Source of the DNA: Candidatus Aminicenantota bacterium
Lineage (GTDB): Bacteria > Acidobacteriota > Aminicenantia > UBA2199
Assembly (NCBI GenBank): GCA_011772425.1
Contig: WVZO01000761.1
Span: 1-40,934 of the forward strand
Length of the DNA stretch: 40,934 bases
Reading direction: 5' to 3'
Shown: positions 3,242 through 36,216 of the stretch, one piece after another
Layout: the number at the start of each line of letters is the position of its first letter
Position numbering within the stretch: position 1 is the stretch's first letter
Position numbers and translations under genes: made by a program
The notes under the pieces: generated by a model
Databases searched by the model: none
What the model saw: the letters and a program-made list of their open reading frames with translations, nothing else
What the model was told of the DNA's origin: nothing

Positions 3242-4570
3242 CTATGTTTTCTTCAACAGTTCTTCTTCAATTTTTTTGATCCATGCGGTATCTTCATTCC
3301 GCTTTTCCCTGGTTTCCCGGATTAAACGAAGATTGCGGGCTGTGGTTTCCGGTTCCCAGGGCTCACGAATCGAGGCAAGCGAGTTCTCTAAATATTCTAT
3401 GGCTTGCGCCTGATCGTTGGCTAAGACCGACAATTCCAGGAGCGTGGCATAATCCCAGTAATCCGGTTCTCCTCTGGCAATTTTCTGTTTTACCGCATAC
3501 ATGACCACCGGCAACAATTCTTTTTGCCTGGGATCATCCGGGTTAAGGAGTTCCAGGAGGGTGACCGCATTCACCCCAGGAAAAAAATCCCGCCAATCCG
3601 CTTCAAACCCTTTAATATAGGTTTCAACAGCTTTTTTCAGGAATCCTTTGGCGATGAATTCATCGCCTTCGTTTTTCGCCTCTTCCCAGCGGTCCTTGTA
3701 GACTCGGCCAAGAAGGCCGTAGGTCTCGCTGCTGGGACCACTTTTTTTTATGATCTCCAGCAAGGTGTCTTCAGCTTTATCTCTCTGTTTGTTTCGATTC
3801 AAAGCAAAGGCGAGCTGCTCTTGAATCATTACCCGGTCAGATAGCGGCCTGGGCATCTCGCTCACCAATTCGATCATTTCATCCCAGGCTTTTGTGGCCC
3901 TGTACGATAGAAAAAGATCGATGAGAATGCCGGATTCTACATCGCTGATTTCACCAAGTTCTTTTTCCACTTCTTTGACAGCTTCTTTATTTTTTTTGCG
4001 TGCCTCTTTTAACTTTTCTTTGATTTGCTGCGAATATAAGACTTGTTCACGGAATATGTCGGTCGCTTCATGGGCCAGGGACTGGGGTTTTAACTCCTTA
4101 AACAATTGAAATAAAGGACTGTCCACGTAAGTTTCAGCCTTTATTTGTTCCAGTTTCATTTTTAGGTTGGCAAGGCCTGTGTCTTTATCCGTTAATCTCC
4201 CATTATTATCCAGTTTGTAAGGTAGTGCGCGCAGCATGTTTAGATCAAAGGGGAGTTGCATTCTTTCATTAAAAATAAGAACGGTTTTAAAAGGGCGTAC
4301 CGCGTGACGAACCCCAAGCTCATAAAAAACATTAGCATTAGCGGTTGTCAGATCGGCAACGGCGTACTCACAAAGAATCAATCGCTCAAACATGGCTTTG
4401 TGAATCATCCCTCCTGCTTTTTCTTCATCCGCCCGGATGGGTTCAAGACCGGCATGTTCAATGGCCGGATGAATCATTTCATCGTAAATGGCATCAAAAT
4501 TGATTTTGATGCCTGAAGGGTCTGTCTTAATTCCAAAAGGCATTAATACAAAACACAACGGTTTAGCCAT
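3242..4570 (-). CDS. NDT/TIR-like nucleotide-binding domain + TPR (DUF4071-like) protein
   Basis: N-terminus FVLMPFG...IYDEMIHPAIEHAGLEPIRADE...AMFERLILCEYAVADLTTANANVFYELGVRHA matches the nucleoside-deoxyribosyltransferase/TIR-like pattern; C-terminal half is helical/TPR-like. Overlaps the stop of the upstream gene by 8 bp. Confidence 0.7.
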   Translation of the reverse strand: MAKPLCFVLMPFGIKTDPSGIKINFDAIYDEMIHPAIEHAGLEPIRADEEKAGGMIHKAMFERLILCEYAVADLTTANANVFYELGVRHAVRPFKTVLIFNERMQLPFDLNMLRALPYKLDNNGRLTDKDTGLANLKMKLEQIKAETYVDSPLFQLFKELKPQSLAHEATDIFREQVLYSQQIKEKLKEARKKNKEAVKEVEKELGEISDVESGILIDLFLSYRATKAWDEMIELVSEMPRPLSDRVMIQEQLAFALNRNKQRDKAEDTLLEIIKKSGPSSETYGLLGRVYKDRWEEAKNEGDEFIAKGFLKKAVETYIKGFEADWRDFFPGVNAVTLLELLNPDDPRQKELLPVVMYAVKQKIARGEPDYWDYATLLELSVLANDQAQAIEYLENSLASIREPWEPETTARNLRLIRETREKRNEDTAWIKKIEEELLKKT

Positions 4571-5585
4571 TTTTTACCTCCTTTTGCTTTGCCCAGAGAT
4601 CCTCTAACGCTTTTTGCATATTCTGTACCCAGCGGCTCAACTCGGACTGGAGGACTTTCTCCGTGCTGTCAACCATTTGCCGGATATTCCCGGGGTCTTT
4701 TTTCTGCACATCGGGCAGGTCGGACCACCAGCCTTTAATATGGATCAGGGAGTATTTGGCCTGGTTGTAGATCATTAAATTGTTATCCACCTGGCGGTAC
4801 TCCAGGAAAGTGGTAAAAATTCCTACCAGGGTGACGGTTAAAGCTACCCACAATTGCAGGCCAATGGCTGCCAGGAACGTCCCGATACCGCCAAAGATGA
4901 CAATAAGCCACTGGCACAATTTCAATTGCCGTTCCATTTTTTTGGTTCTTTTCGTATAATAATTGACCTGGTCACCGAGTCTCACTTCCAGGTATCGATC
5001 CGGCGTCAACGGGGAGAAGCCGTCATCTTTATCTGCTTCGGGTGATTCATCCATATACGGCGGAAGACTACCTTTATATTCTCCCAGGGCCATCTTGCTC
5101 ACATCGGTTTCCATTAACCAACTGCCAACCTGGGAAAGCTTTTCCCTTAATATATCTTTCCTCTGAACTCCTGAATTTGAATCCTCCGTTCCTTCTTCTT
5201 TACTGGGAGGAAGATTAGAGAGTGTTCGGTAACGGTAAATTCCGCTTTTTATCTCTTCCGCGGCCCTGCGCAGCGGTAACCACTTATTACCGGGTTTAAA
5301 AAGGTTGGTAATGGTCATCAAAATGGAAACAGTAACGGGTGCAACAATCACCGTGTAACGCAAAATAATTTCCACCCAGTGGCTTGCCGGAAAGATCGAT
5401 GAAATTTTAACCAATTGTGTATGAACCAATGCCAGAACCGTTGCAAGACCGCCTAATAGAAGTATCCAGAACTGGAGACGGTTGAAACTCTTTTGCTGTT
5501 TTATTGAATTCAGGTCATAGTCTGCAAACTTCTGCCAGGCATCTGTTAAAACTGAATCATGTTTAGGAGATTGTTCCGCACTCAC
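4563..5585 (-). CDS. DUF4231/SLATT-like membrane protein (two 2TM modules)
   Basis: TM pairs LQFWILLLGGLATVLALV / YTVIVAPVTVSILMTI and LCQWLIVIFGGIGTFLAAIG / LWVALTVTLVGIFTTFLEYRQ with flanking helices; co-oriented and overlapping with 3242-4570. Confidence 0.65.
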   Translation of the reverse strand: MSAEQSPKHDSVLTDAWQKFADYDLNSIKQQKSFNRLQFWILLLGGLATVLALVHTQLVKISSIFPASHWVEIILRYTVIVAPVTVSILMTITNLFKPGNKWLPLRRAAEEIKSGIYRYRTLSNLPPSKEEGTEDSNSGVQRKDILREKLSQVGSWLMETDVSKMALGEYKGSLPPYMDESPEADKDDGFSPLTPDRYLEVRLGDQVNYYTKRTKKMERQLKLCQWLIVIFGGIGTFLAAIGLQLWVALTVTLVGIFTTFLEYRQVDNNLMIYNQAKYSLIHIKGWWSDLPDVQKKDPGNIRQMVDSTEKVLQSELSRWVQNMQKALEDLWAKQKEVKNG

Positions 5586-5744
5586 GTTTCACCTCCATCT
5601 AACTCTGAAAAAATAATTAAATCACAATGGAAAAGGAATGTCAAATGAAATTATTTTTTAGGCAGCAATTCTCCTGTCTGCTGCACGGCGAAATCTTTTT
5701 TGCCCCTGGGGTTTAAGAAAATCCCCGGCGGGATTTAAATTTAT

Positions 5745-5870
5745 TTCAGAGATATTTTTAAAAAATTCTGAGAAAATTTCAAAAAACTCTGAAAAAAAAA
5801 ATTTTTTTTTTGAGATTTATTTTTTTATCTTTAAAACTTTTGAGAAAAATAATGAGAAATTGGTTTTATG
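5745..5870. repeat. Degenerate 21-bp-period array (array D)
   Basis: Consecutive 21-mers: ttcagagatatttttaaaaaa / ttctgagaaaatttcaaaaaa / ctctgaaaaaaaaaatttttt / ttttgagatttatttttttat / ctttaaaacttttgagaaaaa / taatgagaaattggttttatg. A/T-rich, so partly low complexity. Confidence 0.4.
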
Positions 5871-5986
5871 CCATGTATTATCGGGTATAATTGGTGCTGG
5901 TTCTATCGAGAAGCCCGGCGCTTTTTACTTTTTGCCGGTTTTGTCCAAAATGAGTGCTTATTTGCTTATAAAAAGCAAAAATTCTT

Positions 5987-8179
5987 TTACGTGCTTTCTG
6001 CTTTTTTAGGGGCCAGGAATTTGTTGTACAGCAGGAGGCAAAGGATGGTTACCACGCCGATGCTGGCAAACACAAGCCACAGGGTCCGCGGCTGGTTCAG
6101 GTTTTTCACAAAGTGCACGTAAAGTTTGGCCCCAACGATACCACCCACTGAACTTCCAAATACTCCGTAAAGGAAAATATAACCCATGTACATGGCCTTT
6201 TTATCCGACGGCGCTGTCAAACCCACGTAGCTGATGAATTTGGGGTGGGCGGTCATTTCACCGACGGAGAATATGATGATGCCCGCCATAAATACCCAGA
6301 TATGGGTGGATACGGCCAGCATGGCTATACCGATGGTGCCGAGGATAATACCGGTTATCATGGTGGGCATGGCTTTTTTATTCTTGACAATGGCTGAAAT
6401 AGCCAATTGCAATATAATAATGGTACCGGCATTGATTACGGTTACATGTTCCACATCAAAAAACCAGTTGCTTTTAATGCCGAAGAATCCCAGGAAACTA
6501 TTGATGGCATTGTTCAACGCAGTGGCATCCACATAAGCCTGGACATACCATAACACGGAATCGAACATCTGGAAATAGAGTACCCAGAACCCGGAGTAAA
6601 GAACGATCATTAACAGGAATTTTGCATGGTCCATAAATTTATGGGTGTCGGTTTTATCGATGATAAACAAGGACATGATGGAAAAGTAGATAACGGAACA
6701 AAGGATTCGCGCCAGTGTATCAAGACCCGGTATTAACCAGATAACCAATATAACTAACGGTACAACAAATTTGGGAATTTGCATGCCGGAAGATTTAATT
6801 CCAGGATTTACCGGCTGTTTTTGCTTTTTATTATTGATGGAAACCGCAGCAATGAACAGCCCGATCAATATCAACGATATCACGAATAATAGGAAAAACG
6901 AACGGCCTCCCAACTGGTTATAAACCTTGTTGCAGTTTGCCTGGGTAATGCCTCGCAGGGCCGGGATTTTATGTATTTCTTTCAGCAGGTCTTGTTTTTG
7001 AGTTTTATATTTCTTCGGTTCTTTGAGAAAAACCTTATATTGGGCCTCAGTGATTTTTTTAACGCTGAAGGGAGTGGTTTCAGCGGGATTGGCTTCAAAG
7101 ATCAGTTCGATTTTATTATCCGACTGTTTGATGTAATTTCTAATATCATTCTCAGTGATGGATTGCAGCGCTGGATTTTCGCTGAGATCTTTCAGCAAAT
7201 CCCCGATGAAATCGTCGATATATACAGGTTTATAGATGGTCAGATCGATAATGTCAGGTGTTTCTTCCCGTGGTTCTAATAGGTAAGGTTTTTCCTCTTG
7301 CATGTTGCGTTCCACGGTAAATATGAGTGTTTTTTCTCCTTTTTCAATACCAACGGCTGCAAATTTTTCGGAGGCGGGCTGCACACTAAGATAACTCATG
7401 ACAGAATATCCCAGTAAGAGAACCAGTACAAGAGTGATAATAATTTTCCAGGCGCCGGATTTTTTCATGAGGTTGTACAACAGTACGATTGGGGAGTAGA
7501 TGATTTCAAACGCATTGGCAAGGGTCTGGATTAAATTGGCTTTTTCTCTCTCTTTTGCCTTTTCTTCCACTTCTTGCTGTTTGGTAGGCTCTTTAAAGAA
7601 AAAAGCGGTGGGAATAAGCATGGCAGCCGTACAGATGCCAGAGGCAATAATCACATAGGTGGGGTTGATGCTTTTTAATATAGGCACCAGGAACAGGGGA
7701 AATAAGAACGCGCCCATGTTAATGGACCAGTAATAAATACCGAAGGCCTGGGTGCTGTTGGATTCGTCGGTAATCTTGGCAATGGTCCCGGAGATCATGG
7801 GTTTGAATGTCCCGGCACCGAATCCCATAATGACCAGGGCAACAAAAACTGCTGTATAGGAGGTCATTTGACTGGTGAGGAAATAACCGCCGCCTAACAG
7901 CGTAAACGCCACCATCAGTACTTTGCGGTACCCGAAACGATCGGCAATCGCACCCGCCAGAATGGGTAAAAAGTAAAGCAAAGGCTGGATGACACCTTTA
8001 ATGATACCGACGTTCTCTTCGGGAAACCCCAACGAGTATACGAAATACTGGGATAGAAAACTCATCATCCCATAATACGCGCCGCGTTCAAAAAACTCGA
8101 ACATCACCACCAGCCAGAACTGGCCGGAGAATTTTGTAAAGAATCCTTTTTTGGCTTGTTTTGGTTGTTCATTTGTCAT
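5987..8179 (-). CDS. POT/PTR2-family (MFS) peptide transporter with about 170-190 aa extramembrane insertion
   Basis: N-terminal FWLVVMFEFFERGAYYGMMSFLSQYFV, GAIADRFGYRKVL, GFGAGTFKPMISGTIAKI typical of POT transporters; hydrophilic stretch between TM halves. Confidence 0.8.
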   Translation of the reverse strand: MTNEQPKQAKKGFFTKFSGQFWLVVMFEFFERGAYYGMMSFLSQYFVYSLGFPEENVGIIKGVIQPLLYFLPILAGAIADRFGYRKVLMVAFTLLGGGYFLTSQMTSYTAVFVALVIMGFGAGTFKPMISGTIAKITDESNSTQAFGIYYWSINMGAFLFPLFLVPILKSINPTYVIIASGICTAAMLIPTAFFFKEPTKQQEVEEKAKEREKANLIQTLANAFEIIYSPIVLLYNLMKKSGAWKIIITLVLVLLLGYSVMSYLSVQPASEKFAAVGIEKGEKTLIFTVERNMQEEKPYLLEPREETPDIIDLTIYKPVYIDDFIGDLLKDLSENPALQSITENDIRNYIKQSDNKIELIFEANPAETTPFSVKKITEAQYKVFLKEPKKYKTQKQDLLKEIHKIPALRGITQANCNKVYNQLGGRSFFLLFVISLILIGLFIAAVSINNKKQKQPVNPGIKSSGMQIPKFVVPLVILVIWLIPGLDTLARILCSVIYFSIMSLFIIDKTDTHKFMDHAKFLLMIVLYSGFWVLYFQMFDSVLWYVQAYVDATALNNAINSFLGFFGIKSNWFFDVEHVTVINAGTIIILQLAISAIVKNKKAMPTMITGIILGTIGIAMLAVSTHIWVFMAGIIIFSVGEMTAHPKFISYVGLTAPSDKKAMYMGYIFLYGVFGSSVGGIVGAKLYVHFVKNLNQPRTLWLVFASIGVVTILCLLLYNKFLAPKKAEST

Positions 8180-8431
8180 GATATTACCTCATTTGCTCTT
8201 TTGTATGTTAATATTTAATTTTTTTTACTTGAATCTGGAAATGATAATACCAGGGTTAATGGTATGAAGTAGAATAATATCAATTAATCGAGAAAAAAGC
8301 AAGGAAAAAAATAGCCCTTCAGCATTTCTAATTTTAGCCACGAAGTTACACGAAGGTACACGAACATAAGAGAAGAAGATAAGAAAAAAAATGGTACCAA
8401 TGGGAAATACCATTATGAAGCATGGTACGAT

Positions 8432-8602
8432 GACTGACCGTGTATGAAAAGTTTTGCGGGGTCCAGGGCACTTACAGTGCGGTATTAAGGAATGCCCATG
8501 GAGACGATATGTCGTTTGAAGCGTCGTACGCCGTCCTGGCACTGCAAGTGCTCCCCCACGCAGTGGGGTTTTTCAAAAGAGCCCCTGGCCGCCGGAGGCA
8601 CA
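8432..8602 (+). repeat. Dispersed hairpin element, copy 2 (with internal extra sequence)
   Basis: gactgaccgtgtatgaaaagttttgcggggtccagggca...ttttcaaaagagcccctggccgccggaggcac. Confidence 0.75.
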
Positions 8603-8603
8603 G

Positions 8604-10088
8604 CTACTGAATTATTTTGATCAATTGATTGGGGGACAATTGCTGGTCCAGTTCCATGTTGTTTATGAGTGCGATCTTATTCCAAACCTGGTTGTGGATT
8701 CGTAATGCGGACAGGAAATTTCTCAGGGTTTGACGGCTGCTCACCCGCTTGACAAACACCCGCTGCGGCCTGCGGTTTAAATGCCTGCGACTGGTTAACG
8801 GGTTGAACGAGTTAATCGTACCATTAATGGTATACTCATACGCAGAAAAATCCGAAAGAGAAGCCGCTGAAAAAAACGTATAAACAATATCTCCTTTTCG
8901 GATGCAGGAGATACCTACCTTTACCTCTTCCTTTTGCTGCTCCTGGCTGCTGTCTTCATCACTGATTAATGACTGCATAAGGGTATGGTATGCATTCATT
9001 CCATTGACATACCGGTATCCTTCCTGGATGATCTGGGGATTGGAAAGCTTTTTTTTCAGCTTATTGGCGTAACTGTCCAGGGATTCTGTGGTGCCTTCAG
9101 CCATAAAGATAACAACGGCTTTTCCATCGCCGGAGGCCAGTGTAACCTGGCGCGGGGTATTGCTGTATTTCCAGCCGCGGGGGATATTGAAATAGAATCT
9201 CATGTCCGGGTGATAAAAGGTATTTCCTTCTACATAGCCCTGCCTGGGATTGTCCCCGTATACCAGACCGTCAAGCCTTGTTAAATAGCCATCTCTTTCT
9301 ACTTTTAATCGAGGTAAATCCCCGGTTCGGCTGTACTCCTCAGCTTGCAGTAGCTCTTTTACTTTTTCAATCCGCCTGGGGGTTAAGGGGTGGGTAGAGA
9401 GAAAATTGGGTAGGCGTACACCGCCTTTGGTTTCTGTCAGACGCTGCAAGGAGTTAAAAAAAGTGACCATTTCGCCAGCAGAATACCCGATTTTTAACGA
9501 GTATTCCACTCCCAGGGCATCGGCCTGGTATTCGTTGCTGCGACTGTATTTCAGGAATAAAAGCTGGGTGGCCAGCATGGAAATGGGAGCAATTTTTCTA
9601 AAGTCTTTACTCAACTCACTGGCGATAACAATACCCAGGGTAAAGAGGATAGAGCGTGTCATCTGCCGGGCAGAGTGCCGGGCATTCACATGCCCCAGTT
9701 CATGACCCAATACAGTCGCCAGTTCCGCTTCACTGTTCATTAATGCCAAAAGACCGCGAGTGACGTAAATATAACCACCAGGTGCGGCAAAGGCATTCTC
9801 TACCGGCGTGTCCAATATAGCAAAATGATATTCCAGGTGAGGCCGATGGGTATTGGGAGCCATCTCCTGGCCGATTTGCTCTATATAAGCAGTGAATTGG
9901 GGGTCCTCATAAAAACCGTATTCCCTGCGCAAACCCTGGTCAATTTCCTTGCCCATTCCAATCTCCATACTCTCAGAGATCAGCATAATCTCTTTCTTAC
10001 CGGTCACCGGGTTAACCGCACATTGTACCTGGATAATGGCAATCAAAACAACCAAAATAAAAGGCGTAATTCTAAAAATTCGTTTCAT
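8604..10088 (-). CDS. M48-family metalloprotease, predicted lipoprotein
   Basis: HELGHVNARH zinc motif, downstream NEYQADALG, lipobox-like IIQVQCAVNP, C-terminal segment compatible with a LysM/peptidoglycan-binding region. Confidence 0.87.
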   Translation of the reverse strand: MKRIFRITPFILVVLIAIIQVQCAVNPVTGKKEIMLISESMEIGMGKEIDQGLRREYGFYEDPQFTAYIEQIGQEMAPNTHRPHLEYHFAILDTPVENAFAAPGGYIYVTRGLLALMNSEAELATVLGHELGHVNARHSARQMTRSILFTLGIVIASELSKDFRKIAPISMLATQLLFLKYSRSNEYQADALGVEYSLKIGYSAGEMVTFFNSLQRLTETKGGVRLPNFLSTHPLTPRRIEKVKELLQAEEYSRTGDLPRLKVERDGYLTRLDGLVYGDNPRQGYVEGNTFYHPDMRFYFNIPRGWKYSNTPRQVTLASGDGKAVVIFMAEGTTESLDSYANKLKKKLSNPQIIQEGYRYVNGMNAYHTLMQSLISDEDSSQEQQKEEVKVGISCIRKGDIVYTFFSAASLSDFSAYEYTINGTINSFNPLTSRRHLNRRPQRVFVKRVSSRQTLRNFLSALRIHNQVWNKIALINNMELDQQLSPNQLIKIIQ

Positions 10089-10217
10089 TTATCCTTCTCC
10101 TTGCCATTAATTATACAACAAAATAGAAAAAAATGTAAATTGACAATGTCAGGGAAATCTCTTATAATTCCATATCCTTATATTGCTGATTTTCTTAGAA
10201 TGAAAAGGCCTTAAAGA

Positions 10218-10982
10218 ATGTTAGAATTAAAAGAAATAACCAGGAAATTTAACAACATCCCGGTAGTCAAGAACGTCAACTTCTGTGTAAAACCCGGTGA
10301 AATCCTGGGATACCTGGGGCCCAATGGAGCAGGAAAAACCACCACGGTGAAAATGCTGGCCGGTCTCCTGGAACCTACGGAAGGATATATTTATTTTAAT
10401 GGCAAGAAAATAACCGATGACCTGGTGGCATATAAAGAAAAAATCGGTTATGTACCTGAACAGAGTGAGCTTTACCCTCATTTAAGCGGGTTGGAGTATC
10501 TTCAATTGGTGGGACGGCTGCGTCAGATGCCGGAGGATAGCCTGAATCAAAAGATTGAAGGATTAATGGAGCAATTGGGTCTTTCTGTGGATATGCATCT
10601 TCCCATCTCCAATTATTCGCGGGGCATGCGTCAAAAGGTTCTAATTTCAGGGGCATTACTCCATAACCCCGATATCCTACTGCTGGACGAGCCCCTCTCC
10701 GGCCTGGATGTTGCCACCACGTTAGTATTTAAGGATATACTGGGTCAACTGGCGGCGATGGGAAAGATCATTCTCTATTCGTCTCATGTCCTGGAAGTGG
10801 TGGAAAAGCTTTGCTACCGGGTAATCATCATTAATAAAGGAGCGATCGTGGCGGATGACTCGGTGCAGCAATTGAGTTCCCTGATGAAACTCCCTTCGTT
10901 GGAGTCCATATTCAAAGAATTGGTTCAGCAGGAAGATACGGAAAAAAGCGCCAAAGAAATAATTTCAATCATTCAATCCTAG
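10218..10982 (+). CDS. ABC transporter ATP-binding protein
   Basis: Walker A GPNGAGKTTT, signature NYSRGMRQKV, Walker B DILLLDEPLSGLD. Confidence 0.92.
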   Translation: MLELKEITRKFNNIPVVKNVNFCVKPGEILGYLGPNGAGKTTTVKMLAGLLEPTEGYIYFNGKKITDDLVAYKEKIGYVPEQSELYPHLSGLEYLQLVGRLRQMPEDSLNQKIEGLMEQLGLSVDMHLPISNYSRGMRQKVLISGALLHNPDILLLDEPLSGLDVATTLVFKDILGQLAAMGKIILYSSHVLEVVEKLCYRVIIINKGAIVADDSVQQLSSLMKLPSLESIFKELVQQEDTEKSAKEIISIIQS

Positions 10983-10983
10983 T

Positions 10984-13900
10984 TTATGTTTCCTGTGTTT
11001 GTATTGGGGTATCGGCTTCCACCGCGGGTTGTGCTCTGGTTCCCAGGAGAAATTTCTGGAGTTTGTAGAAGAGGTAGTAAAAGATGGGCAGCACAAAGGG
11101 GATAAGGAGAGCGGAAGTAGTAAGGCCACCCACCGTACAGAGGGCCAGGGATGACCATATATCTGATTGACTGGCGGAAGTGCCTTCCCTGAAAATCACC
11201 AGGGGCAGCATGCCCAGGATCGTGGTCATGGAAGTCATAAATATCGGTCGAATCCGTTCCTTGGTGCCGATAACAATGGATTCGATGAGCTTGTTGGTTT
11301 GTCGCAGGTGGCGGTTGATATTATCGATCAAGATAATGGAATTATTGACGACAATCCCCATTAGCAGGATGATACCAATGTGTGCCGTGGAATCAAAGGA
11401 ATAATCCATCACCACAAAAGCAATCCATACACCGATTAACGCCAATGGGATGGAGACCGCAATTATAAAGGGCTGGAAAAAACTCTCGTAAAGCATGCCC
11501 AGGAGCAGTATAATCAGTAAGAATGAGAGTCCCATGGCATAATATAATTGGCCTTCCTCTTCTTCAGTCATCCTGAAGCGGAATTGTTCCAGGCTTTTTT
11601 TGAAGCCTGGAGGTACCTGGAGGCGCTCGTATAAGGTATCATGGAATCGCTGCGCAATTTTAGCAGAACCCAGGTAATCCCACTGCACCATGGCTTTGTA
11701 TTCCTGGTTCTCCCGCGTAATGCCGCCTTTCTGAACGGAGAACTCTACATCCACCACATCCAGCAGCCGAAAGGGAGTACCGTCGAGAGTGTAATGATAT
11801 TTACTTAAAATATCTGCCAGTTCTAGATCTTCCACGTCAGAGGCTTTGATTTCCACGGACATCTCTTTATCTTCATATTTTAATCGTGCCTGCCCGGAAC
11901 CTTCTCGTAACATCGTTTGGATGATATAGTTAAGATACGCGGGGCTTAATTGGTATCGTTTTAATTTGTCACGATTCACTCGAAACGCATAGTATTTGGT
12001 TTTTCCAGCCCAATACCATTTAAAATCCGTTTGAATTTCCGCCTCTTTAATGCGTTTGTGTCGTAAGAGGGTGCGTTTCACTTCATTGGAATATTCCATA
12101 AGTTTTTCCAGGTTATAGCTGGACAGCCGGACGTCATAGGGCAGGTGAGAACCGGTATCGGGATTGTAATAGTAAGGTTCCTGGTCAAATCCAGCCACAC
12201 CCACACCCACCCCGGCCAGGTTGGTGGCCAGACCCACCAGTTCCTGTTTTAATTGGAGTGGGTAGGCGGAAGCTTCTATTTTCGGTGGGAACGTGATTAC
12301 CATATAAGCCCATCTCGGACCAATGGAAGTATTGACCTCTTTGGGATAGGGTTTGTCCACGGCTACTTTTTCAAATTTGATAATGGCTTGTTTGATATCT
12401 TCAAATTCGGCGCCTGAAGGGAACCTGAGCCAGACAGTGACTTGCTGCTGGTTGAACCAGCCGAAAAAGCGGCCAAAAGAAACCTCTTCCTTAAAGGTGG
12501 TATGGGATGAAATGAGCAGCACAATAATGGGAAGGATGATCACGATGGGGTATCTCAGGAGAAAGGGGAAGAATCGTCCTTTTTTGAACAACTCTTTGTT
12601 TTTCCTATTTTTCAATTTTAATTTTATCCTGGCGCTGAGGGAGGGGATCAATACGAAAGAGACCGCAATAGAAGAAACCAGGGAAATGGCAATAATATAT
12701 GCCAGGGGGAGGTAGTATACGCGGAGGCGATCTTTAAATAAAAGGGCAAAGGAGAAAAACACGATAATCGTGGTAAAGGTGGAGGCCAGAACCGGGAGGA
12801 TCACGGCTTTTGCCCCTTCAACAGCAGACTCCTTATTTCCATGCCCCCGTTCCCGGAAACGCAAAATACTGTCAAATACTACCACGGCATTATCCACAAA
12901 TAATCCAAATCCCAATGCCAACCCGGATAACGTGAGCAAATTTAAAGAGATATCAAACAGGTAGATGGCGGTAAGGGTGGCGAATACAGAAAAAAACACC
13001 GAGGAAAATATGAGCAGGGATGACTTGATGTCCCGGATAATCACCAGTAAGATCACGAATATGATGATTAAGATTAAAAAGGCAATCTTACCTAATTTGA
13101 AGAGCTGGCGTTCCAACCGTCTGCTGTCATCGCTTTGAATCACAAATTCAATGGGGTCGTGAAGTTTATTGCTCAGGTATTGGAGTTTGGCTTTGACTTT
13201 ATTGGCCAATTCCAGGTGGCTGTAAGCAGGCTCTTTAAACATTTCGACCTGCACATAGGGTTCACCCTGGTAGCGTCTCTCATTGGTTAAGCGTTCGTAC
13301 CCCAGGAATACATCCGCCACTTCTTTCAGGTAAACTTTTTTCTCCCCCAGACTGTGGATAACAATATTCTGGATATCTTCGATTTTGTCAGGGTTTTCCG
13401 TCAGTGACAATGTAATTTCGCCGGAATTCCTGGTAAAGGAAAGGGAATGTTTGGTGTAAAAATGTTGAGACAGCCTGAGCTGGATTTCCTGGAGATTCAC
13501 CAGGAATTTTTTCAACCGGTTCATATTGGTTTGAATTTTAATTTCAGGGTCAACTCCACCCCAGGTATCAACGGTTTCAATGCCGGGGATGGCTTTCAGG
13601 TGAGGCACAATTTCCTTTTCTGCGATCTTGCGGATGGCATGTATGGAATAATCTTTGGCATACACACCGATCTTAAGCAGGGGCTCCTGCTTGAATTCCT
13701 CGGGAATATGTGGTCTAACATCGGGGTTGGGGACCTGGCGTGGGAGTTCCTTTTGCAGTCGGTTTAAACGTTCCCTCAGTTCCACTTCAGCGAAATTCAT
13801 CCGCGTGTCCCGGCTAAATTCTACATCAATGGTACCATAATTCTGCTGGGCATTGCTTTCTATTTTTTCAATGCCTTTGATTTGGGTGAGTTGTTCTTCC

Positions 13901-33417: not shown

Positions 33418-36216
33418 ATGGCACTTATTTATAATGTAACCATTGAACCGGCGGGGAAGGAAAGAGAAAACCTATTCCACATCACCTGGCAAAAAAAAGG
33501 CACAAACCAAAAAAATGGTTTTAAGCAAAAAACCGGGGACATTACACAAGAAGAAGTTGAACGGTTGTGGCAGCAGCCAAAGTATCAGACGGTTGTAGGC
33601 AAGAAACTTTTCAATTTCCTGGACGGAGATAAACGCTATCTGCAGCAGGCACTGGACCAGGCTAACAGCAAAGGCGAACCTTTGCAACTGGATTTGTGTA
33701 CCTGTGACCGGACAGCGGATTGGCCTTTTGAGCTGCTGGTGGGGGACGGGGGTTTTTTGCTTTCGGAGCGAATGCACCTGGTCCGCTGCGTTTCAGAGTA
33801 TGCCGCGGAAAAGGAAACGACTCCCCAGGATCGACCCTTAACACTTCTGTTCATGGCCTGTTCCGCCCTGGACGTGGAGCCGGAACTGGATTTTGAAAAA
33901 GAAGAAGAAGCCATATTCCAGGTCACGGAAAAACTGGCCGTGGACATGGAGGTAGAGGATTCTGGTTCCCTCGAAGGACTGCGGCAACAATTGGAGCAGC
34001 AGCCCTACGACGTGGTACACCTCTCCGGTCATGCTGATATCGATAAACAGGGGGTGCCGTATTTTATCATGGAAAATGAAACCGGTTTCCGCCGGGATGT
34101 TTCTCCTTATGAACTGTGGGAAGATGCGCTTATAGATAATCCGCCGCGGTTATTGTTTTTATCCGGCTGCCGCACCGGTGAACCGGCCGAGGAGTTTGCT
34201 TCGGTTTCTTTTGCCCGCAGGTTGGTAGAAAAATATAATGTGCCCGCGGTCCTGGGGTGGGGGCGTTCGGTGAGCGATCAACAGGCCGCGCATGCGGAGA
34301 AAATGATTTATCGTGAATTGAGCCGGGGCAGGACCATTTTGGAAGCGGTGCAGCGCGCCCGGCATGAATTGATCAAAGAATTTCCCCTGACCACTGACCC
34401 GGCCTGGCCGCTGCTGCGGTTGTTCAGCAGCGGTATGACATTGGCCGCCATTGTAAAAGCGCCGAAAAAAGGCCGGCAGCCGCGGCTGACACCCAGGCAA
34501 ATGGTTCATACGTTTTTAAAGGACAGCCAGGTGCAGGTATTGGCAGAAGGGTTTGTGGGCCGGCGGCGCCAGTTGCAGCGCAGCATAGGGGCATTGAAAC
34601 AGGATGTCCACAAAGTGGGTCTGCTGCTCCTGGGCACTGGCGGGCTGGGAAAAAGCTGCCTGGCCGGTAAAATCAGCGAACGGTTCAGATCGCACACCTT
34701 GATCGTGGTGCACGGCAAATTCAATGCCTACACTCTGGAACCGGCATTAAAAGCGGCTTTTATCCAGGCTGAAGATGAAAAAGGCAAGCAAATCCTGGCC
34801 GCGGAAAAAGAAATGTCCGAAAAATTAGCCGAACTCTGCGCCGCCAGTTTTAAAGAGAAAAACTATTTGATTCTCCTGGATGATTTCGAGCAGAACATCG
34901 AGGGGGCGGAAAAAGGCCAACCCGGCTATTTATTGCCTGAAGCTGCGGAGTTGTTGAACGTCCTGCTCCAGTACCTTCATTTCAGTGGTAAAATGACGCA
35001 AATCATGATAACCAGCCGTTACTCGTTTTCGTTGACAGACCAGGACCGTGACCTGGTAAAGGAGCGGCTGGAATGGATTACGCTCACCGGTTTCCCGGAA
35101 TCGGAGCAGAAGAAAAAAGCAAGGGAGTTGGAAAATATTTTTTATTATGCGGACCAATCGCTGGTGCCGCAATTGGTGGCAGCCGGACACGGCAATCCCC
35201 GGTTAATGGAGTGGCTGGACGTATTGGTAGGTGAGATGGAAGCCGCGGAGGTGCCGCAATTGCTGGAAGCCATAAGCGGGAAGCAGGAAGAGTTTATCCG
35301 CGAACATGTGATCCGGGAGCTGCTGCGGCGCGGCGGGGATGAATTGGCACTTTTTCTGCGCTGGTTCAGTATTTATCGCCGGCCCGTATTAAAAGAAGGC
35401 GTGCGGCAGGTGGGGGAGAATGCCGGGCTGGAAACCTGGGAGGAGTTATTACAGGAAGGGACTGGTTTAAGCCTGGTGGAGTATGACCAGGCCCGGCAGA
35501 ACTACCGGGTGACGCCGCTGCTGCGGGAGGAGTTATCCGCCGGGCTTAAAGACCCACAGGCCTGCCACCGGGCAGCCTTTGCCTATTATGAAAAAATATG
35601 CAAAGACATGGAGACTATCGAGCCTGTGCTGGTGGAAGAGTGGATATATCATGCATTGGGCTGTGGGGAAGAAGAGGTGGCGTCTGAGCAGGGAGGCAGG
35701 TTGGTTGGTCATTTACTTGATCGTCTGGCTTTCCGGGAATCGCGGCGGGTGGGGCTGTGGGTCCTGAAAGAGAAGAACAAGGAATTGTCCACGGCCAATG
35801 ATGCTTTTTTATTGAATGAGACTGCATTAACTATAAAAACATTGGGCGAACCCCGCAAAGCCATCGATTATTATGAGCAGGCGCTAAAGATTGATCGCAA
35901 CGTGTATGGCCAGGAGCATCCTGCTGTGGCCATTCGCTTGAATAACCTGGGAGAAGCCTGGAGAGTGTTAGGTGAGCCGAAAAAGGCCATCGAGTATTAT
36001 GAACAGGCGCTGACCATATTTAAAAAAGTGTATGGAGAGAATCATCCGAATGTTGCATCTGCATTGAATAACCTGGGGGTTATTTATCTCCAACAGGGTC
36101 AAAAGGAAAAGGCAAAAGCGTATCTTGAACAGGCGTATAAGATCAAATTAAAATTTTATGGTCCCGATCATCCCAGTTCAAAGACAACCGCCAAATGGCT
36201 GGAAGATTGTAAATGA
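33418..36216 (+). CDS. CHAT protease domain - STAND-like NTPase - TPR protein
   Basis: CHAT His VVHLSGHAD and Cys LLFLSGCRTGEPAEEF; Walker A LLLLGTGGLGKSCL; Walker B YLILLDDFEQN; C-terminal kinesin-light-chain-like TPRs AIDYYEQALKIDRNVYGQEHPAVAIRLNNLGEAW. Confidence 0.9.
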   Translation: MALIYNVTIEPAGKERENLFHITWQKKGTNQKNGFKQKTGDITQEEVERLWQQPKYQTVVGKKLFNFLDGDKRYLQQALDQANSKGEPLQLDLCTCDRTADWPFELLVGDGGFLLSERMHLVRCVSEYAAEKETTPQDRPLTLLFMACSALDVEPELDFEKEEEAIFQVTEKLAVDMEVEDSGSLEGLRQQLEQQPYDVVHLSGHADIDKQGVPYFIMENETGFRRDVSPYELWEDALIDNPPRLLFLSGCRTGEPAEEFASVSFARRLVEKYNVPAVLGWGRSVSDQQAAHAEKMIYRELSRGRTILEAVQRARHELIKEFPLTTDPAWPLLRLFSSGMTLAAIVKAPKKGRQPRLTPRQMVHTFLKDSQVQVLAEGFVGRRRQLQRSIGALKQDVHKVGLLLLGTGGLGKSCLAGKISERFRSHTLIVVHGKFNAYTLEPALKAAFIQAEDEKGKQILAAEKEMSEKLAELCAASFKEKNYLILLDDFEQNIEGAEKGQPGYLLPEAAELLNVLLQYLHFSGKMTQIMITSRYSFSLTDQDRDLVKERLEWITLTGFPESEQKKKARELENIFYYADQSLVPQLVAAGHGNPRLMEWLDVLVGEMEAAEVPQLLEAISGKQEEFIREHVIRELLRRGGDELALFLRWFSIYRRPVLKEGVRQVGENAGLETWEELLQEGTGLSLVEYDQARQNYRVTPLLREELSAGLKDPQACHRAAFAYYEKICKDMETIEPVLVEEWIYHALGCGEEEVASEQGGRLVGHLLDRLAFRESRRVGLWVLKEKNKELSTANDAFLLNETALTIKTLGEPRKAIDYYEQALKIDRNVYGQEHPAVAIRLNNLGEAWRVLGEPKKAIEYYEQALTIFKKVYGENHPNVASALNNLGVIYLQQGQKEKAKAYLEQAYKIKLKFYGPDHPSSKTTAKWLEDCK

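Follow-up and report, generated by a model that had tools for sequence, protein, structure and literature searches.

A SLATT membrane gene overlapping an ASK-like NDT/TPR-S gene: a candidate two-gene conflict module in an Aminicenantes genome

Within a 40,934-nucleotide stretch of DNA from a Candidatus Aminicenantota bacterium (contig WVZO01000761.1; the whole stretch is called the window below), two overlapping genes on the reverse strand encode a predicted membrane protein and a second protein in which an enzyme-like domain precedes helical repeats. The question raised by this locus is whether the two genes constitute a minimal conflict system and, if so, how the second protein might act on its membrane partner.

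The overlapping genes and the membrane protein

The upstream gene (4563..5585, reverse strand; GTG start) encodes a SLATT double-module membrane protein of 340 amino acids, and the downstream gene (3242..4570, reverse strand; ATG start) encodes an ASK-like protein of 442 amino acids. Their junction reads GGAGGTAAAAAATGGCTAAACC, and the two frames share the 8 nt ATGGCTAA (4563..4570, reverse strand), so that the downstream start does lie inside the upstream stop, as originally predicted. Strong Shine-Dalgarno sequences of the GGAGGT type are present at both starts; that of the SLATT gene is GGAGGTG (5590..5596, reverse strand), and the sequence upstream of its GTG is GGAGGTGAAACGTGAGTGCG. The overlap, together with the Shine-Dalgarno spacing, suggests that the two proteins are made in a fixed ratio, as would be expected for the parts of a complex.

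The upstream product had been predicted to carry DUF4231/SLATT-like modules with two transmembrane helices each, and the profile searches agree. DUF4231 matched at residues 28-123 (Pfam, 2.1e-10) and SLATT_1 at residues 198-319 (Pfam, 1.2e-23, 83.9 bits against a cut-off of 26.3; NCBIfam, 1.2e-30, 106.2 bits against a cut-off of 41). Hydropathy gave two hydrophobic stretches, at about residues 34-98 and 220-263, each of the length of a helix pair and one per module. The structure model of this protein, built from 3 sequences, was too poor (pLDDT 49.6) for pore geometry or helix confirmation, and a scan of viral sequences with aligned SLATT proteins gave no match. The closest plasmid relatives, at 37-39% identity, are larger and carry a TRPM-type SLOG domain before the same two modules. 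These fusions set a precedent for coupling a nucleotide sensor to such a membrane module, and the window protein corresponds to the membrane half of the known SLOG-SLATT design, with the sensor placed on a separate protein.

An ASK1-like partner and its N-terminal domain

The ASK-like protein matched MAP3K_TRAF_bd at 2.1e-56 and TPR-S (Tetratricopeptide Repeats-Sensor; residues 228-339, 3554..3889, reverse strand) at 3.2e-26 in Pfam; these two profiles (PF13281 and PF20308) scored 192 against a cut-off of 24.1 bits and 92.3 against 27.6 bits. The TPR-like helices of the original prediction are thus present; more exactly, they make up the TPR-S sensor already described for the ASK family. Human ASK1 structures were the clearly significant solved relatives by sequence, at 8.9e-11 with the single sequence and 1e-18 with a 14-sequence profile. 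AlphaFold modelling, which had been proposed as a check, likewise led to ASK1. The AlphaFold2 model (pLDDT 81.5, pTM 0.51) consists of an alpha/beta domain at about residues 1-120 followed by a long helical array, and its top PDB match in Foldseek was human ASK1 8qgy (E 5.1e-10, 433 columns), in a comparison that took the whole model as query and is dominated by the long TPR part. The TM-score to 8qgy was only 0.36, so the agreement is one of consecutive segments rather than of a single rigid superposition. The second protein therefore corresponds, in bacteria, to the N-terminal half of ASK1, TPR-S sensor included. TPR-S was reportedly described and linked to ASK by Burroughs and Aravind in 2020, and the same authors are said to have predicted it to be a sensor of NAD+-derived signals.

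The N-terminal domain (residues 1-120; 4211..4570, reverse strand) was compared in an alignment of 23 sequences, drawn from Acidobacteriota, Pseudomonadota, Campylobacterota, Bacillota and viral contigs. The LMPFG...ADLTTANANVFYELGVRHA stretch occurs at residues 9-90, and I33, D48, D73, Y83, E84, G86, R88, H89 and D109 are invariant across the alignment. Glu84 lies in VFYELGVRH (residues 81-89; 4304..4330, reverse strand). When the domain profile was compared with PDB, the Rcl/DNPH1 N-hydrolases came first (5.2e-4), with Glu84 aligned to the glutamate of their YELG motif, which is the catalytic residue in Rcl and NDT. Nuc_deoxyrib_tr (Pfam) was found in 9 of the 23 members (best 2.6e-5), the window protein itself being without a match, and a viral fold library placed a CMP/hydroxymethyl-CMP hydrolase first (1.8e-5) and then an NDT. 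In the printed alignment, the second acid of Rcl, Asp69, is replaced by Met60 of the window protein. Asp69 is the second catalytic Asp of Rcl; its replacement leaves the substrate, and even activity, uncertain, and the window protein is accordingly not classed as a DNPH1 enzyme.

The original prediction had called this domain NDT/TIR-like. Its NDT half stood, with the Glu of FYELG invariant in all 23 sequences, whereas its TIR half proved weak. A PADLOC TIR effector did match the window protein at 2.1e-8, but CAP12-TIR of Pfam reached only 0.045, the weak Pfam TIR links among relatives were at best 0.015 (CAP12-TIR), and hhalign of the domain against neighbouring ThsB-type TIRs gave no match (0.6%). 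A plain TIR reading was dropped because of that last comparison. As judged from these profiles, the domain resembles NDT/DNPH1 N-glycosidases more than TIR, to which its likeness is faint, and we regard it as a putative NDT-type N-glycosidase domain in which the predicted catalytic Glu is kept. Stand-alone genes for NDT-like domains of about 220 amino acids were also seen in the temperate phages SM1 of Streptococcus (L115) and SA13 of Staphylococcus (L116), on the strand opposite to most neighbours; they are possibly morons.

Human ASK1 has FYHLGVRES where the bacterial protein, which keeps the NDT active site, has FYELGVRHA. With Glu changed to His and His to Glu at this stretch, the animal domain seems catalytically inactive, and we infer that the ASK1 thioredoxin-binding domain is derived from such an enzyme.

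Recurrence, alternative partners and neighbourhood

The pairing was found in two further genomes. In a second Aminicenantes (L024), a SLATT gene lies directly upstream of an ASK-like gene (60% identity) with an ATGA overlap, and this locus is also present in the genome G382, which belongs to the same family as the window. In another Acidobacteriota family (L026), the SLATT gene ends in CATGGCTAAACG and precedes an ASK-like gene (52% identity), the two frames overlapping by the very 8 nt seen in the window. The L026 SLATT protein (343 amino acids) is very divergent, with two hydrophobic pairs and a SLATT_1 score of 26.4 bits against the cut-off of 26.3; its gene was found with PF18181 on whole genomes, and absence at other loci was not judged from ORF lists. 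A single-sequence scan of genome contigs returned one relative only. The overlap and the gene order in two other genomes make the pairing more than chance, and the predicted coupled two-gene operon is borne out by these overlapping frames.

Genes of both families also lie together in other phyla. On Agrobacterium and Rhizobium plasmids, an ASK-like gene (54% identity) is followed immediately downstream by a DUF4231 gene, and the one tested carried SLATT_3 and SLATT_1. Plasmids of Vibrio harveyi, Klebsiella, Neorhizobium and E. coli have SLATT within a few genes, together with TIR genes, the E. coli locus (L052) comprising an ASK-like gene, two TIR genes and SLATT; other plasmids have TIR near the ASK-like gene and no SLATT; and one viral contig encodes ASK-like, ThsB_TIR, SLATT and ThsB_TIR in a row. 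Among 72,556 plasmid records, the ASK-like family occurs in 67 and the proteobacterial SLATT type in 85, and both occur in at least 19 records, against 0.08 expected if independent (67 x 85 / 72,556), although many of these records are near copies and not phylogenetically independent.

Neighbourhood conservation, also proposed as a check, gave a divided answer. In the close group of nine loci (the window, L024, L025, L026, L027, L047, L048, L054 and L110), five have a SLATT neighbour and the frames overlap in three genomes, but the other four (L025, L027, L048 and L054, at 52-58% identity) have no neighbouring SLATT. In L025, a TPR-S protein fused to a patatin phospholipase (3681-6308, reverse strand) is divergent from the ASK-like gene; in L054, from Paraburkholderia, a SIR2-TIR fusion and an nSTAND1 NTPase lie downstream of it (7796-11415); and in L048 its neighbour is NDT-like. 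SLATT is thus one interchangeable partner among several, in keeping with a modular conflict system. None of the distant PF13281 loci in the Acidobacteriota phylum sample has SLATT nearby, and SLATT doubles also occur without an adjacent ASK-like partner, in G387 and in G382. The G382 double (L099, contig C435) adjoins a gene for a Ser/Thr kinase carrying PEGA domains, and the same contig encodes an ASK-like/TPR-S protein of 857 amino acids that is extended at its N terminus by a charged segment. In the Rhizobiaceae loci L047, L109 and L110, genes for a TIR protein, a DNA lyase (Ogg-HhH), a deazaguanine-synthase-like protein, a TIR-TGT fusion and a carbohydrate kinase are divergent from the ASK-like gene, and this group looks like a further conflict operon with queuine-like chemistry.

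The window's genome (G000; 10.4 Mb in 768 contigs, completeness 87.65, contamination 6.86) exceeds most of its family's genomes in size by a wide margin. PF13281 was found in 2 of 143 genomes of the class and in 14 of 297 of the phylum sample. The neighbours of the pair are transport and housekeeping genes rather than a defence island, and the M48 peptidase and MFS transporter genes beside it are kept in two genomes of the same genus. One of these (L097) keeps the flanks without the pair, and in the other (L098; G387, contig C968) the pair's place is taken by a lone SLATT double together with a small SLATT and a pentapeptide protein, so the site is variable among close relatives. An argument for horizontal transfer from base composition was set aside, since the pair does not differ from its surroundings in GC or GC3; the support for transfer comes from distribution and synteny only. 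As predicted, SMODS/CD-NTase and SLOG had no match among the window ORFs scanned against Pfam, nor had a separate TIR, and neither ThsB nor ThsA of Thoeris was found in the window. The window also encodes a 932-amino-acid CHAT, AAA/NB-ARC-like and TPR protein (33418-36216, forward strand), another candidate conflict gene. At about 8372-8600 it holds a dispersed element with 83-93% identical copies on many other contigs of the genome, and at about 1077-1152 a repeat of 50-75 bp found at 81-94% on many contigs of same-family genomes.

Proposed function and relation to known systems

We infer a defensive role and consider it an even prospect that the pair is a two-gene conflict module, for defence or programmed death, in which a sensor-enzyme consuming NAD+ or a related nucleotide gates a SLATT effector. 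The TPR scaffold would sense a cue or ligand of infection or stress, and the NDT domain, then released, would cleave NAD+ or a related nucleotide at its N-glycosidic bond. Either the cleavage product or the activated ASK-like protein itself could open the membrane SLATT assembly, and the resulting collapse of ion gradients would stop or kill the cell. The recurring overlapping order, the same partner families in other phyla and the invariant residues of the putative active site argue for such a module, as do its sporadic distribution and the variability of the locus among close relatives. A stronger form of the proposal, that the two proteins are self-sufficient, an ASK1-like sensor and signal maker with a live NDT site gating SLATT directly without TIR, CD-NTase or SLOG, and that the animal ASK1 thioredoxin-binding domain is its catalytically dead descendant, is tentative and on balance doubtful.

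The main rival, which we think rather unlikely, is that the pair receives signals as in Thoeris: TPR-S would bind the NAD+-derived signal of a TIR encoded elsewhere, and the NDT and SLATT parts would both be downstream effectors. In most of the plasmid loci inspected, TIR genes (ThsB_TIR where tested) adjoin the ASK-like gene or lie close to it, ThsB_TIR has 16 matches elsewhere in the window's own genome, the divergent TPR-S-patatin protein of L025 resembles a signal-receiving effector, and the sensor role reportedly predicted for TPR-S would suit this reading; with no TIR gene found in the window, however, the signal would have to be supplied in trans. The order of the profile matches, with Rcl/DNPH1 best in PDB and CMP/hydroxymethyl-CMP hydrolase best among viral folds, would agree with a domain that acts on (deoxy)nucleoside monophosphates and starves phage DNA synthesis, SLATT being a second, separate layer. 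We see little chance of this, as Met60 stands in place of Rcl Asp69, the invariant set R88, H89 and D109 is a different one, and the coupling to a membrane protein is left unexplained.

Signalling of membrane or oxidative stress, as by ASK1 in animals, would account for the colinearity with ASK1, the transport and housekeeping neighbours and the unremarkable GC and GC3, but the sporadic occurrence, the carriage on plasmids and viral contigs and the TIR, SIR2-TIR, STAND and patatin neighbours of relatives make it similarly improbable that the pair serves stress rather than defence. That the genes are chance neighbours is largely refuted and would be very surprising: both do occur apart elsewhere, but the same overlapping order is found in three genomes of two families, in one of them with the identical 8 nt shared, even though the SLATT proteins themselves are now barely recognisable as relatives.

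The conflict module would be a compact bacterial equivalent of the part of ASK1 that senses, its presumed ancestral enzyme site being intact and tied to a membrane effector. Should the signal that opens SLATT come from the Glu84 enzyme, gating without TIR or CD-NTase enzymes would be shown, and the past role of the ASK1 thioredoxin-binding domain would be explained. Because related operons are carried by plasmids of E. coli and Klebsiella, the idea is open to test in ordinary laboratory strains.

SLATT and TIR-SLATT pairs have already been described, as reportedly have TPR-S and its link to ASK. This kind of module has been predicted before, and we know of no test of the two-gene form. We found no paper on a coupled SLATT and NDT-TPR-S operon without TIR, although Burroughs and Aravind 2020 may list it.

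The pair can be set beside several known systems. With the animal ASK signalosome kinases (ASK1/MAP3K5; PDB 8qgy, 5ulm), the bacterial protein has in common the order of the thioredoxin-binding domain and central regulatory region over the 433 alignment columns, but it lacks the kinase part. It belongs with the prokaryotic TPR-S/ASK-like conflict proteins, its TPR-S being above cut-off and its relatives having TIR, SLATT or patatin neighbours; the window differs in its two-gene SLATT and ASK-like operon without a TIR gene. Relatives of the ASK-like gene carry ThsB_TIR neighbours, as in Thoeris (ThsB TIR with ThsA), whereas none was found in the window. The SLOG(LSDAT_prok)-DUF4231-SLATT_1 fusions of Hymenobacter and Chlorohelix (L045, L046) have the same double membrane module but hold the SLOG sensor within one chain, where the window has a separate NDT-TPR-S protein. 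In Firmicutes phages, SLATT is found with TIR and is predicted to be a permeability effector regulated by ADPr derivatives (PMC9503650); the SLATT effector is common to these pairs and the window, but the window's enzyme domain is NDT-like and lies inside the ASK-like protein. In DRT10-SLATT, the SLATT gene is needed for phage defence in E. coli, a pore role being proposed only, and the partner is a reverse transcriptase, unlike the window's ASK-like protein (PMC12632851). Finally, the NDT effector of Retron-Eco1 reportedly forms NAD+-hydrolysing filaments (Carabias 2024, as cited in PMC12548924); an NDT-type domain would serve there in defence as an NAD+ hydrolase, in a system whose reverse transcriptase has no counterpart at the window pair.
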